Shown: in pieces, positions 180 to 36,836 of the stretch
Position numbering within the stretch: position 1 is the first letter of the stretch
How the letters are laid out: every line of letters starts with the position of its first letter
Made by a program: the position numbers and the translations under genes
Notes under the pieces: generated by a model
Told to the model about the DNA's origin: nothing
What the model saw: only the letters and a program-made list of their open reading frames with translations
Database searches by the model: none
Source of the DNA: a virus
Reading direction: 5' to 3' (one strand)
IMG/VR virus record: IMGVR_UViG_3300036885_000544
Coordinates: 1 to 36,836 of that record
DNA length: 36,836 nt

Positions 180-464
180 CTAGGAGAAGTCATCTTCTTC
201 ATCCTGGTCTGTGTATGAGCTTGTTTGCTTTTTCAGTTTCCTCACTTTTTCGATAGATTTCCGATGGGAGATCTTCAATTCCTGGAGTAATTCCTCGACA
301 AATGAAATTGTGTCTTTTTCCATATCAAGAGTGACGCCATTAAGATAAAATCTTTCTGCAATTATATTGACGAGGGCTACAATTGTATCGGCGTGAGACA
401 TAATGATGTTTTCGTTATAGATCGCATCCATGATGTGTACCTGCAAAATCGTCGACCGATTCAT
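180..464 (-). CDS. Small helical protein, first gene of the minus operon (paralogue family)
   Basis: This encodes 94 residues with no recognised domain. A hydrophobic helix (about residues 25-40) is followed by an acidic turn and a charged amphipathic helix, ending in a lysine-rich stretch and an acidic tail. The order matches the small proteins at 33874-36561, of which it seems a diverged member. The start has GGAG seven bases upstream. On the circular map it is the promoter-proximal gene of the minus operon that continues across the join into 36784 and downward. Function unknown. It could be cytoplasmic with a buried helix or weakly membrane associated. Confidence 0.65.
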   Translation of the reverse strand: MNRSTILQVHIMDAIYNENIIMSHADTIVALVNIIAERFYLNGVTLDMEKDTISFVEELLQELKISHRKSIEKVRKLKKQTSSYTDQDEEDDFS

Positions 465-18952: not shown

Positions 18953-19171
18953 TTATTTCTCCTCAGCCATCTTCTTTCTTTCCTCGATAGCGCAGAGTCT
19001 ACCATGAAAATCTCTCATCTCAATATAGGTCTCTTGATGCATGGACGACAGCAATTCCTCTAATCGTCTGGCGTCGGCTCGTCCTTCTGACCTAGACCAA
19101 AAGAACATACCGCATATGGTGACCATAATTACTACCAGCTCTAGCACCTGAACCTTAATTTCTTCTTTCAT
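18953..19171 (-). CDS. Membrane-anchored coiled-coil protein (paralogue 1)
   Basis: This encodes 72 residues: a short charged start, a membrane segment (about 8-25) and a charged helix ending in DFHGRLCAIEERKKMAEEK. The C terminus is shared with the next gene, showing they are copies. The final codons also supply GAGGAG for the downstream start. The one-span-plus-coiled-coil plan is that of many small phage membrane proteins, including inner-membrane spanins, although this one is short for a spanin. Confidence 0.7.
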   Translation of the reverse strand: MKEEIKVQVLELVVIMVTICGMFFWSRSEGRADARRLEELLSSMHQETYIEMRDFHGRLCAIEERKKMAEEK

Positions 19172-19174
19172 CGC

Positions 19175-19399
19175 CTATTTCCCCTCAGCTAACTTTTTTC
19201 TCTCTTCAATGGCACAAAGCCTACCATGGAAGTCCTTCATTTCCTGAGCAATGGCGTCGATTTTTTTGTCAGTATGAAGGTAAAGGGTAGTCATTTCGTC
19301 CCTCATTTCCTGCATGGCCTTTTTGTTTGATGCGATACAGGCATAAATGAGGCCGATGTTTGCTGACACAATCGTGATTACAGAATAATCAATGTGCAT
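19175..19399 (-). CDS. Membrane-anchored coiled-coil protein (paralogue 2)
   Basis: This encodes 74 residues: a hydrophobic N-terminal segment (about 5-24), a polar helix, and the C-terminal DFHGRLCAIEERKKLAEGK that matches the neighbour at 14 residues in a row. The DNA of that block differs at many third positions, so the protein motif has been kept by selection. The end of the gene provides GAGGGG for the next start. Function unknown. Confidence 0.7.
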   Translation of the reverse strand: MHIDYSVITIVSANIGLIYACIASNKKAMQEMRDEMTTLYLHTDKKIDAIAQEMKDFHGRLCAIEERKKLAEGK

Positions 19400-19464: not shown

Positions 19465-19641
19465 TCAGCCCGAAACCTTCTCGATCTTTTTGCTGAGCAT
19501 CCTGATTTCTAGCTCGGTCATCCTCCTATGCTCTCTAAACTCCCTTTCCTCCTCGTGACAAAACCCCTTGAGAAAACAATATCCCCCATAAACACACCCT
19601 ATGTTCGCTGCAATGATGAGTAAAAATAATGATGAATCCAT
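19465..19641 (-). CDS. Small membrane-anchored protein
   Basis: This encodes 58 residues (starts MDSSLFLLIIAAN) with AGGAG upstream. One membrane segment (about 4-25) is followed by a highly charged helix rich in E, R and K. It has the same design as the two following minus-strand proteins but lacks their shared C-terminal motif. It is the promoter-proximal gene of this islet, opposite the fibre operon. Confidence 0.6.
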   Translation of the reverse strand: MDSSLFLLIIAANIGCVYGGYCFLKGFCHEEEREFREHRRMTELEIRMLSKKIEKVSG

Positions 19642-33243: not shown

Positions 33244-33633
33244 ATGGTAGGTGCTAGACCAAAGAAGGATCTTGACATCGAGCAAATTAAAGAGCTGGCG
33301 CACATCCAATGCACGATGACAGAGATCGCTGCTGTCATGCGATGTTCAGTCGATACGCTCGAGCGAAAGTATGCGGACGTCATCAAAGAAGGCAAGGAGA
33401 ATGGCAAGAAATCCCTTCGCAGGGCACAGTTTGCGAAGGCTTTGGAGGGCAATCCTGCCATGCTTATTTGGCTCGGGAAGTTTTACCTTGGCCAAAAGGA
33501 AGAGATCAATTTCACGAGCTCTGAGCCTGATGTAAGGGCATTGCTCGAGAGGTGGGAAGTCACGGCGAAGAAGAAGTCTGATTACTCAAGGATTGGGAAG
33601 CCTGACAAACCTACGGATGCAGTTTCCTCGTAG
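33244..33633 (+). CDS. terS: Terminase small subunit-like DNA-binding protein
   Basis: This encodes 129 residues. An N-terminal helix-turn-helix (about 25-45: MTEIAAVMRCSVDTLERKY) is followed by KKSLRRAQFAKALEGNPAML and WLGKFYLGQKEE, the pattern of phage small terminases that pick the DNA to be packaged. A short upstream frame overlaps the start and GGAGG is 12 bases away, so translation may be coupled or weak. It is on the opposite strand from, and over 6 kb away from, the large subunit, which is unusual. A transcription regulator is the alternative. Confidence 0.72.
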   Translation: MVGARPKKDLDIEQIKELAHIQCTMTEIAAVMRCSVDTLERKYADVIKEGKENGKKSLRRAQFAKALEGNPAMLIWLGKFYLGQKEEINFTSSEPDVRALLERWEVTAKKKSDYSRIGKPDKPTDAVSS

Positions 33634-33871
33634 CTTCTAAGTCAATCGTTTTTTTACATTCAGGGCATTTATGATGCGTTACTCTATCTTCGCCAATATC
33701 ATACATGCCAACTATTCTTGAAAACCTATGCCTGTCTTCTGTCGTCCACCCATAACCCTCAGCGAGCTCCAAGGCCTCCTCTTCACTCTTGCCCTCTTTC
33801 AAGAAGTGCTCATATATATCCCCGTCATCCAATAGGGCTTGGCAGTGAGGGCAATGGGCGGGGTATCGCAC
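33611..33871 (-). CDS. Small zinc-ribbon protein
   Basis: This encodes 86 residues from a GTG. CPHC (7-10) and CPEC near 69-72 with HH before it make a zinc ribbon around a helical middle. The 3' end overlaps the convergent small terminase gene by 23 bases. It is the last gene of the minus operon. Function unknown. Confidence 0.65.
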   Translation of the reverse strand: MRYPAHCPHCQALLDDGDIYEHFLKEGKSEEEALELAEGYGWTTEDRHRFSRIVGMYDIGEDRVTHHKCPECKKTIDLEATRKLHP

Positions 33872-33873
33872 GG

Positions 33874-34212
33874 CTATAACCCTGTAAATGATTCGAGAAG
33901 GCGCTTCATAAAAGAATCGCTTGACGCCTCTTCTTCGCCATTATGTTCTTCCAAAGCCTTTAACACCTTAAGCACAATACTTCTACTCGTATCCACAATC
34001 AGATCTCTAGACTCGTGCGGAAAGCCCGAATGAATAAGCACAGCCATAGACACTGAAAGAGCTGACACGAAACCTGGTACAAGAACGTCCATGTCTTTTT
34101 TGTCAAATTCGCGTACAGTTTCATTTATAAACACTGAAAGCTTTTCTAACACAAATTGCGACTTGTCCTTAATTCGAGAAAGCCTTTCTTGGACCTCTTC
34201 ATCTGTTCTCAT
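33874..34212 (-). CDS. Small helical protein (paralogue family)
   Basis: This encodes 112 residues: amphipathic helix (10-35), acidic linker, small-residue hydrophobic helix (43-62, with SALSVSMAVLI), an acidic turn (PHESRD), then helix 3 (70-88) and a polar tail. The same order recurs in seven other genes of this operon. Overlaps the upstream gene by 14 bases. Function unknown. Confidence 0.65.
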   Translation of the reverse strand: MRTDEEVQERLSRIKDKSQFVLEKLSVFINETVREFDKKDMDVLVPGFVSALSVSMAVLIHSGFPHESRDLIVDTSRSIVLKVLKALEEHNGEEEASSDSFMKRLLESFTGL

Positions 34213-34462
34213 TCAACTCAACCTTTTCAAGATCGTTAACAATGTTTGCAACAATATCGCGATAACAGCTCAAGGTATGTTCAAAATCTTCTTTGTCAAT
34301 ATTTGTGACGATTGCCGACGCAGCTAAAGTCGCTGACGCGGTCATAACGATTTTAAATACATCAACCAGATCAGGCGTGTGCTCAGGGAGAAATTCTATG
34401 ACTGCTTGAGAAAGCCTCACGGCCAATTCCTTCGATAAAGCAAGGATTTCTTTGTGTTCCAT
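34199..34462 (-). CDS. Small helical protein (paralogue family)
   Basis: This encodes 87 residues: helix 1 (5-25), linker PEHTPD, hydrophobic helix (34-54, TASATLAASAIV), turn DKEDFEH, helix 3 (60-80). AAGGAA precedes the start. It is close in plan to its downstream neighbour although residue identity is low. Confidence 0.65.
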   Translation of the reverse strand: MEHKEILALSKELAVRLSQAVIEFLPEHTPDLVDVFKIVMTASATLAASAIVTNIDKEDFEHTLSCYRDIVANIVNDLEKVELNENR

Positions 34463-34465
34463 TTG

Positions 34466-34741
34466 TTATTCCTTTAAAGGATTTTTGGGGATGGATTTTA
34501 ACCCAGCGTGGAACATGTTAATGAATCCATCTCGATCTCCACCAAACGATTCTGATGTTAACATGATTGAGGCAGCAATTTCGAGAACAGCAAACGTCAT
34601 TGCGGATAATTCCAACGAGTTGGGACGCAAATGATGTTGTTTCTGTACCATATCGAAGAAAGAATTACCAATCTCTGAGTACCTTCTTCTGAACTCTTCG
34701 GAATTTTCTTCCGATGCTTCGTGGTCAAGTTTATTTTCCAT
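34466..34741 (-). CDS. Small helical protein (paralogue family)
   Basis: This encodes 91 residues with AGGAG upstream. An acidic N-terminal tail, helix 1 (17-35), hydrophobic helix (45-62, AVLEIAASIML), turn FGGDRDGF and helix 3. It is the first protein gene after the two tRNAs on this strand. Confidence 0.65.
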   Translation of the reverse strand: MENKLDHEASEENSEEFRRRYSEIGNSFFDMVQKQHHLRPNSLELSAMTFAVLEIAASIMLTSESFGGDRDGFINMFHAGLKSIPKNPLKE

Positions 34742-34761
34742 GATTGCTCCTATCTTTGATT

Positions 34762-34834
34762 CTCCTGATGCATGAATCGAACATGCGACTCCCTCGTTAA
34801 CAGCGAGGTGCTCTACCAGCTGAGCTAATCAGGA
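34762..34834 (-). tRNA. tRNA-Asn (GTT)
   Basis: This is a 73-base cloverleaf. The acceptor arms TCCTGAT/ATCAGGA pair fully with discriminator G. The D arm is GCTC/GAGC; the anticodon stem CCTCG/CGAGG has loop CTGTTAA, anticodon GTT; the T arm is GCATG/CATGC with TTCGATT. No CCA is encoded. Confidence 0.93.
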
Positions 34835-34837
34835 ATA

Positions 34838-34910
34838 TGCCCGAAGTAGGATTCGAACCCACGGCCTACTGTTTACGATACAGTAGCTCTACCAGCTGAG
34901 CTATTCGGGC
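34838..34910 (-). tRNA. tRNA-Thr (CGT)
   Basis: This is a 73-base cloverleaf only 3 bases from the tRNA-Asn. The acceptor GCCCGAA/TTCGGGC pairs fully with discriminator A. The anticodon stem ACTGT/ACAGT has loop ATCGTAA, anticodon CGT, reading ACG. The T stem has one G.U pair. No CCA is encoded. Confidence 0.92.
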
Positions 34911-34916
34911 GTTGTG

Positions 34917-35189
34917 TTATGAAGCCAATGTTTCGTGTATCATTTCAGCAACAAATTCTTCCGCCAATTTGTAATAATTTTTATCAACCTTGTCAGATAT
35001 AAGCTGGCTTACCAATCCTACGGCGGCACCTATTAACAAATCGTTTCTTAATTCCTCGTCTCCCTTAAAAGTATTTTCGTTGATGGTTTGCATTAACAGA
35101 TTCATCCCTTTTTCAATAAAATCATTCATAAGATCGAGCTCATGAGCAGTTGGGAGTCGAGGTTCCCATTCTTTGTCATCACATGTCAT
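34917..35189 (-). CDS. Small helical protein (paralogue family)
   Basis: This encodes 90 residues: helix 1 (17-37), polar linker, hydrophobic helix (50-64, LLIGAAVGLVSQLI), turn SDKVDKNY, helix 3 (72-88). It overlaps the upstream gene by 4 bases. The hydrophobic helix with turn is closely alike to that of the upstream protein (LIGTGIGLLLVKFL, then SDKDEE). Confidence 0.68.
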   Translation of the reverse strand: MTCDDKEWEPRLPTAHELDLMNDFIEKGMNLLMQTINENTFKGDEELRNDLLIGAAVGLVSQLISDKVDKNYYKLAEEFVAEMIHETLAS

Positions 35190-35479
35190 GACTTATTCTC
35201 CATTTTCTTTTTTTCCAACAGCTGATTAAAGTTCATTCTTGAAGTTTCCATTATTCTTTCAAAAGATTCTAATTCCTCGTCTTTATCCGAGTATTCAATA
35301 AGAAACTTTACCAAAAGTAGGCCAATTCCGGTGCCTATTAATTGGACAGGAGACACAGACAGTTTTTCTTGTTCTTCTTCAGTAAATGTGTCGCGCATCA
35401 CTTCTTCACATTTGCATACGAATGCAAGAACAATTTTACCCTCGTGCGATTCGCTGCTAAATCTAACTATTTGAGTCAT
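35186..35479 (-). CDS. Small helical protein (paralogue family)
   Basis: This encodes 97 residues from the ATG with GAGGAAG upstream; an 11-residue longer frame lacks a site. Helix 1 (14-31), acidic linker, hydrophobic helix (45-62), acidic turn, helix 3 (68-92). Overlaps its upstream neighbour by 17 bases. Confidence 0.66.
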   Translation of the reverse strand: MTQIVRFSSESHEGKIVLAFVCKCEEVMRDTFTEEEQEKLSVSPVQLIGTGIGLLLVKFLIEYSDKDEELESFERIMETSRMNFNQLLEKKKMENKS

Positions 35480-35873
35480 CGTCTTCCTCTTTTTCTGGGT
35501 TGTCCAGTGCATGCCTAATGGCTTCGATTAGCTCGCCAGTGTTATTCATGCCCACTCGTCTTGTGTCTCCGTCACAGTAGGGGTAAACCTCCCAGTATGG
35601 TTCTCGCTTCCAACCAAGGTCATCATAGCAATCAAGATAGACGCTGACCCTGTGTGTCTCTCCTGCTTTGTTCACAATGAACCTTGCGATTGCCCCCGCA
35701 TAAGGAGGAATGACTCTCACTTCCCAATTGCTGTCAAATTTTAATGGAGGAATTTTGTCACACCACTTGTCCCATTCCATGTATTTTCCGATAACTTCGG
35801 ATAAAAAGAATGCCTGTGCACATCTTGTATGCGGTTGTCCGAAGGGGCCAAAAACATCACTTTCTTCCGTCAT
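35463..35873 (-). CDS. Globular phage protein, unknown
   Basis: This encodes 136 residues from an ATG with GGAGAGG upstream. It is not of the paralogue type: rich in W, Y and P (WDKWCDKIPPLKF; VRVIPPYAGAIARFI; PYWEVYPY), with an acidic tail of D and E. This looks like a single compact mixed fold; I have a faint memory of similar hypothetical proteins in other phages. Overlaps the upstream gene by 17 bases. Confidence 0.62.
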   Translation of the reverse strand: MTEESDVFGPFGQPHTRCAQAFFLSEVIGKYMEWDKWCDKIPPLKFDSNWEVRVIPPYAGAIARFIVNKAGETHRVSVYLDCYDDLGWKREPYWEVYPYCDGDTRRVGMNNTGELIEAIRHALDNPEKEEDDDSNS

Positions 35874-36135
35874 CTTCCTCTCCATTTTCAGCAAGCTCAG
35901 ACATAAACCAAGGGAACAATCGCTCAACCCTGCCTTTAAATCCTTGCCATATAGGTCTGACATCTTCCCCCTTTTCGGCTAAATCAGCCATCTCTTCAAC
36001 AAGCACAGCGACAAGTACAGTGAGTCTCATCGCCACTTCTGAATCCTCATCCTCGAGGCATTTTGTGTGGAATGCCGCTCTAATTTGCTGTATCAATTGG
36101 CGTTGTCTTGCAGTAAGTGTACACATCAGGGTCAT
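35857..36135 (-). CDS. Small helical protein (paralogue family)
   Basis: This encodes 92 residues from the ATG with GAGGTG upstream (a longer frame begins at 36201). Helix 1 (8-24), acidic linker CLEDEDSE, hydrophobic helix (34-50, RLTVLVAVLVEEM), turn EKGEDVRP, helix 3, acidic end. Confidence 0.62.
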   Translation of the reverse strand: MTLMCTLTARQRQLIQQIRAAFHTKCLEDEDSEVAMRLTVLVAVLVEEMADLAEKGEDVRPIWQGFKGRVERLFPWFMSELAENGEEDDGRK

Positions 36136-36207
36136 TCTTGTCACCTCGTTTTGGTCGAATCTAATACAAAAGAGCCTATCGGGTGTTGGATGGGGGATCA
36201 TGACGTC

Positions 36208-36561
36208 CTAACTTAAGCAGTCAGGGACTTCGGGCTTTGCGACATAATCTTCCAAGCTTGGAATATCATCGCCGAGGTCTTCAGCCATCCTTGCTATAGT
36301 TCCATCCACCCATTCGGCGTGATCGTTTAGGAGGATAAACAATTTCTTTTCATCCTCTAAAGCAATGGTGCCCAAAACAGACATGGTGATGGACCGAAGG
36401 GCTGCGATGATTGCTGTCGCCTCTATGTGCCCATCGAGATTTTCTTCAGCGGCCTTTATTGCAATATTTTTGAACTGCCCAAGGGAGGCTGTTGCATATT
36501 CAATAGATTTTGTTGAGCAATATTCCATTTGCTCCTGAGTGAGTTTCCTTTCCTCTTGCAT
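36208..36561 (-). CDS. Small helical protein (paralogue family)
   Basis: This encodes 117 residues if it starts at 36561, where GAGG is six bases upstream; ATGs at 36564 and 36573 are alternatives. Helix 1 (18-40), acidic linker, hydrophobic helix (48-67, TAIIAALRSITMSVLG), turn ALEDEKK, helix 3 and an acidic tail. The 5' end overlaps the upstream gene by about 60 bases. Confidence 0.6.
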   Translation of the reverse strand: MQEERKLTQEQMEYCSTKSIEYATASLGQFKNIAIKAAEENLDGHIEATAIIAALRSITMSVLGTIALEDEKKLFILLNDHAEWVDGTIARMAEDLGDDIPSLEDYVAKPEVPDCLS

Positions 36562-36784
36562 CATAAGCCTCATGTAGTTGTTTAAAATCTGTCTTGCACC
36601 ATTTCTGTACGTTGTCCCAGATGCTATCATTGGACACTATTCTGACAAAGCTGTAGACGAACTCATCATGAGCATATTTTATCTGGACGAGCACCATTTC
36701 ACCATCCTTTGGGCGATCAAGGTGTGGATAGCGCCAAGGAAGCTTATCAAGATTGATCTGGTACTCGTCTTCGTCTATTTCCAT
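36500..36784 (-). CDS. Small protein across the circular join, unknown
   Basis: This encodes 94 residues. A strand-rich middle (GEMVLVQIKYAHDEFVYSFV) and a W-containing helix (IWDNVQKWCKTDF) look like a small globular domain rather than the helical family. The first 99 bases are repeated at 1-99. On the circular map it is the second gene of the minus operon after 180-464. Confidence 0.6.
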   Translation of the reverse strand: MEIDEDEYQINLDKLPWRYPHLDRPKDGEMVLVQIKYAHDEFVYSFVRIVSNDSIWDNVQKWCKTDFKQLHEAYDARGKETHSGANGILLNKIY

Positions 36785-36836
36785 TTGCTCATCCCGTGAT
36801 TCATGAATGCCAATGCGAAAAATAGCAATGCCATAG
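36686..36836. repeat. Terminal overlap, right copy (circular join)
   Basis: This matches 1-151 with one difference (A here at 36812, T at 127). The difference falls upstream of the gene start at 36784 and may mark a variant in the sampled population or a sequencing error. Confidence 0.9.

Follow-up and report, generated by a model that had tools for sequence, protein, structure and literature searches.

The window, by which we mean the whole stretch of DNA analysed here (record IMGVR_UViG_3300036885_000544, 36,836 nt), is a complete tailed-phage record with a 151-bp terminal repeat that contains one mismatch. This repeat implies that 180-464 adjoins position 36836, so that the joining of 180-464 to the array at 33874-36561, proposed in the original prediction, is borne out. 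Apart from the portal and TerS genes, TerL, RusA, an exonuclease, RecT and a replication protein were identified. Megablast against GenBank phage DNA gave no match to the window, and the portal is only ~23-26% identical to those of phages of Burkholderia, Pseudomonas and others. Between TerS and portal lies a tightly packed minus-strand operon of small genes in the order H, Y, G, F, X, E, D, tRNA-Thr, tRNA-Asn, C, B, A, Z (Table 1). The eight small ORFs (A-H) that had been predicted are all present in this one operon on the minus strand, which also contains X and the tRNA pair as unrelated features, and Y and Z, which are not of the proposed protein type. B and A overlap by 14 bp, E and D share an ATGA, and C and B are separated by 3 bp. 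SD-like sequences precede several starts (AGGAG for C, AAGGA for B, GGAG for D), and E would be 108 aa long if started at an upstream ATG (35512). That the small genes are spurious ORFs was rejected in view of the context of their starts, their tight packing and the homologues found in other genomes. Portal and divergent operon are separated by a long inverted repeat at 532-592 with 24-nt arms (83% complementary), a 13-nt loop and an AT-rich centre; ORFs with similar acidic-YIY-poly-Ser palindromic coding lie upstream of the portal in two related loci, L005 and L060.

Table 1. Genes of the small-gene operon and the flanking TerS and portal genes. Positions refer to the window; KD, Kyte-Doolittle hydropathy.
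Feature	Position	Strand	Description
Portal	716-2797	opposite to small-gene operon	PHROG 156
TerS	33244-33633	opposite to small-gene operon	
Z	33611..33871	-	86 aa, GTG start; putative zinc-ribbon protein; operon end
Protein A	33874..34212	-	112 aa, acidic, pI 5.1, central KD 2.15; orphan
Protein B	34199..34462	-	87 aa; small family with L002:6035-6283
Protein C	34466..34741	-	91 aa; G-family member by iterated HMM and hhalign
tRNA-Asn (GTT)	34761..34835	-	within operon; ARAGORN
tRNA-Thr (CGT)	34838..34910	-	within operon; ARAGORN
Protein D	34917..35189	-	90 aa, pI 4.3; orphan
Protein E	35186..35479	-	97 aa from ATG behind SD-like AGAGGAAG; orphan
X	35463..35873	-	136 aa; outside three-helix plan
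Protein F	35857..36201	-	114 aa; own family of seven in relatives (HMM)
Protein G	36208..36561	-	117 aa; alternative upstream starts; founder of largest family
Y	36500..36784	-	94 aa; outside plan; 34% to L002
Protein H	180..464	-	94 aa; operon's first gene, across join; poorest plan fit

The eight proteins had been proposed to share one order of helices with a hydrophobic helix in the middle. All of them are acidic (pI 4.3-5.3) and each has one hydrophobic helix or stretch, with mean Kyte-Doolittle hydropathies of 1.37-2.15 over a segment of 17 residues. This segment is central in seven of the eight proteins, whereas in H it sits at a relative position of 0.29 along the chain. A strict rule ('amphipathic - hydrophobic - amphipathic, few P/G') was passed by five of the eight, where 1.3 were expected from shuffles, and, among the window's remaining 22 small genes, by one; as we chose the thresholds after viewing the proteins, the figure of five against 1.3 is indicative. 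The common order of helices is thus above chance; H fits it worst.

The low identity described in the original prediction is evident, as no pair among the eight stood clearly above shuffles and direct pairwise comparison gave no signal. Pairs within the eight scored 27.9, no better than the 31.8 reached with one sequence reversed. Profiles that included relatives from IMG/VR (80 of 363 portal-bearing contigs were kept) and a larger data set of 232 loci with 8,486 ORFs gave a different picture for part of the array. HMM iteration yielded a G family of 17-19 members, situated at the corresponding locus in relatives and including protein C of the window. C matched the G profile with an hhalign E of 2.7e-5 and a probability of 74%, against an E of 0.047 for the reversed control. 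This homology emerged only with the IMG/VR relatives added; the C-G pair alone scores 25 (z -0.1). Judged by these profiles, C and G are established as diverged copies within a single new family. F aligned with G in register (hhalign E 0.001; 0.007 in a second build) and is called a probable relative of the G family because reversed controls reach comparable scores. B belongs by phmmer to a second small family (35% identity to L002:6035-6283, E 3.6e-4, its sole relative found). Against the G profile, scores of A, B, D, E and H stayed within the range of reversed controls; nothing in the 232 loci was linked to A, D, E or H, and D had no relative in a single-protein IMG/VR scan either. Alignment A1 was too divergent for pattern scanning, which was done instead with alignments of TerS, of the portal and of sub-families. 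One family uniting all eight at profile level, as had been anticipated, is hence seen for C and G and is probable for F, but not for A, B, D, E and H. Eight paralogues are unproven, and the profiles point to at least two diverged copies of one family amid look-alikes.

One could take the locus for an island of ORFans, that is, unrelated small genes collected where insertion is tolerated, among which homology is limited to C, G and perhaps F, and with a common plan that is simply how any small helical protein looks. We consider this a serious possibility, at clearly less than an even chance. It agrees with the lack of homologues of A, D, E and H in the 232 loci and with the comparisons within the eight, in which neither pairwise nor profile scores beat reversed controls; likewise, across 252 profile pairs from the window's phage lineage, forward scores did not exceed reversed ones overall (p 0.10). 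Nevertheless, the architecture is enriched in the array compared with the window's other small genes and is seen again at the corresponding site in many relatives. Moreover, the kinship of C and G stayed hidden in the pairwise comparison and became visible only with relatives, so the remaining proteins could be hidden likewise.

Predicted folds cover G and B out of the eight proteins. AlphaFold modelled three main helices for G (129-aa construct; helices 21-51, 56-81 and 83-107; pLDDT 79, pTM 0.42) and, with low confidence and from two sequences only, helices 3-28, 32-53 and 57-86 for B (pLDDT 66, pTM 0.39). With pTM values this low the packing of the helices is unsettled in both models. Fold searches of PDB and BFVD gave no significant match; the best Foldseek match of the G model was a CsoR-type three-helix repressor (PDB 4m1p), which is alike in its three helices but not significant (E 2.5, Z 3.6). 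A majority pattern is present in the G family, consisting of an R in helix 1, an E at the start of helix 2, an A/S/I-rich helix 2 and L..H in helix 3. In the 19-row alignment of the family (A7), E59 occurs in at least 90% of rows, and several members have K, R, D, N or Q inside the middle helix. The conserved starting E and these internal polar or charged residues suggest that the middle helix is soluble and amphipathic. This bears on the idea that the proteins are single-pass membrane proteins (holin, spanin or membrane-targeted) whose hydrophobic helix is a transmembrane segment. While the central hydropathy windows attain values at which transmembrane segments are called, they are borderline, and charged or polar residues occur within the helix of the G family and of F (R, K, D, N, E), which is without flanking positive charge. 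Charged residues are found inside the helix of C and many relatives too, and AlphaFold places the hydrophobic helix of G between two amphipathic helices. As the middle helix carries charged residues in G, F, C and relatives, we regard a membrane role as improbable.

Comparison with related phages revealed how quickly the locus changes. In the nearest relative, L002, the portal is 91% and TerS 76% identical, and most backbone genes are at ~68-91%. By tblastn against L002, A-E, G and H were undetectable, and F, Y and Z were found at 34-52% (F at 36% over 33 aa). Z has homologues in L002, L003 and L007, and X has one in L004/L005 (52% over 103 aa, tblastn). The small-gene locus is the most variable stretch of the genome seen, which confirms rapid turnover. 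The adjacency and order of G and F are kept in L002, L004/L005, L011/L012, L035 and L130. Other small helical proteins, a zinc-ribbon gene and tRNA-Asn were found at the corresponding locus of relatives, the tRNA-Asn in L002, L012, L014, L035, L040, L058, L059 and L130 (ARAGORN). The search for copies in related genomes that the original prediction had suggested was successful: adjacent copies were present in L060 (7892/8432; 38% over 87 aa, E 2e-18) and in L059 (2177/2602; 24% over 98 aa, E 3e-12), and L003 and L007 have two G-family members apiece. Together with the common family of C and G, these copies support serial duplication as had been proposed, though not for A, B, D, E and H. In more distant phages whose portals are related, the corresponding site has other small proteins that resemble one another by eye, for example four in L184 and two each in L179, L024 and L022. 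Elsewhere in the window, three small membrane-anchored genes stand in tandem (18953-19171, 19175-19399 and 19465-19641); the first two have a common C-terminal motif, 'DFHGRLCAIEERKK', which is present in L022 too, and are another local duplication.

In many relatives the locus also contains an AAA_28 kinase, classified by PHROG as thymidylate kinase / NMN adenylyltransferase-like, and a 70-aa PnuC-like gene. The 70-aa protein of L035 is half-length and matches Pfam NMN_transporter above the cut-off. Half-length PnuC-like proteins of 70-80 aa lie at L035:8901-9116, L002:7959-8198, L009:8255-8473 and L055:8958-9170; they lie next to an AAA_28 kinase, with which they may possibly make up a pair of half-size transporter and NAD-salvage enzyme. 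The window itself is without a half-length PnuC-like gene. The presence of kinase and PnuC-like protein in relatives argues for an accessory, host-directed locus.

When the eight proteins were compared with Pfam, PHROGs, NCBIfam and PDB sequences, none reached a curated cut-off and the matches were weak and scattered. The statement that they belong to no described family is thus upheld within these four sources. Known anti-defence or takeover families did not match the eight proteins. With PADLOC, individual proteins matched Cas13d, BrxC and LmuA, but weakly and in a scattered way, and these matches were discarded. Small-gene accessory islands are a known kind of locus, and the protein families are new within the sources searched. 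As these families are absent from the libraries and the site next to TerS and portal is fixed and recognisable, many further genes of this type could be collected by way of it.

The position between TerS and portal would also suit virion or DNA-packaging accessory proteins, and similar-looking small proteins are found between terminase and portal in the more distant L032 and L067. However, the operon lies on the strand opposite to TerS and portal, and unlike structural parts its proteins differ in number and identity by genome, which makes a virion or packaging role hardly probable. We favour, at just short of an even chance, host takeover or anti-defence by an accessory operon that is hypervariable and encodes small, acidic and soluble proteins of three helices. 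At least G and C, and probably F, are diverged duplicates of one new family, and the remaining proteins, with the same architecture, may be more remote duplicates or separate recruits. Most likely, the proteins of the operon would be produced as one set during infection and would bind host proteins, with every copy adapted to another host target or to one that changes. The outcome would be host takeover or counter-defence, with host functions disabled or redirected. Small size, acidity, tight packing, duplication and fast change are consistent with binding to host targets, and small phage proteins binding host factors are a known class (PMC11323111; PMC6873191). The location next to packaging genes counts against the favoured reading, as do the lack of matches to known anti-defence or takeover families, the low pTM values and the finding of no excess similarity among the orphans in bulk controls. 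The step from a variable accessory operon to anti-defence is one that we infer and consider plausible.

The host-takeover module of Bacillus phage SPO1, a cluster of 26 genes, resembles the operon in that many small genes without database relatives are combined in a tailed phage, but it differs in genome position and host, and in the portion of the source consulted its genes are not described as a single three-helix family (PMC6873191). Phage anti-CRISPR and anti-defence clusters are similar as well, being single operons of small, acidic, fast-changing accessory genes, yet neither a known anti-defence protein nor an Aca regulator was identified.

The close portal relatives found by a pattern scan of GTDB genomes belong to two MAGs, one of Parachlamydia and one of Methanomicrobiales. 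Of 232 Chlamydiota genomes, 10 had a portal relative, in several cases on a contig of phage size (35-41 kb); among 295 genomes of the archaeal MAG's phylum there was one, namely that Methanomicrobiales MAG itself. The complete-size phage contig binned with the latter (L130, CAIYHQ010000095.1) was most likely placed there by a binning error. Loci bearing relatives of the window portal in Chlamydiota genomes are L131 and L133-L154. The occurrence in 10 of the 232 genomes suggests that Chlamydiota are the probable host, as inferred from the phage's relatives; the assignment is unproven because MAG binning can err and because the comparison covered Chlamydiota and the archaeal MAG's phylum. If it holds, the portal relatives represent a lineage of tailed phages of Chlamydiota, on which no paper was found in the open-access literature; this probable setting is new within the sources searched. 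Well-described phages of chlamydiae are, to our knowledge, small ssDNA microviruses. The operon would then encode accessory proteins of Chlamydiota tailed phages, and defence and counter-defence would become testable in an intracellular phylum. That the proteins form a new, tandem-expanding three-helix superfamily serving a widespread, undescribed lineage of such phages as a changeable counter-defence or takeover kit within an obligate intracellular bacterium seems rather unlikely to us.

The tRNA-Asn is ~75-89% similar to chlamydial tRNAs, often over part of its length, which is too low for a host assignment. The G-family profile gave only weak matches in the 232 Chlamydiota genomes, mostly inside longer frames, and thus no sign of an origin from the host chromosome. 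In one Chlamydiota genome, IS3-like transposase genes surround a portal fragment and an ORF resembling terminase (L154:10485-16443, on the 125-kb contig C1 of G157). Ordinary genes flank this region, which is probably a decayed chlamydial prophage of a distant lineage member.
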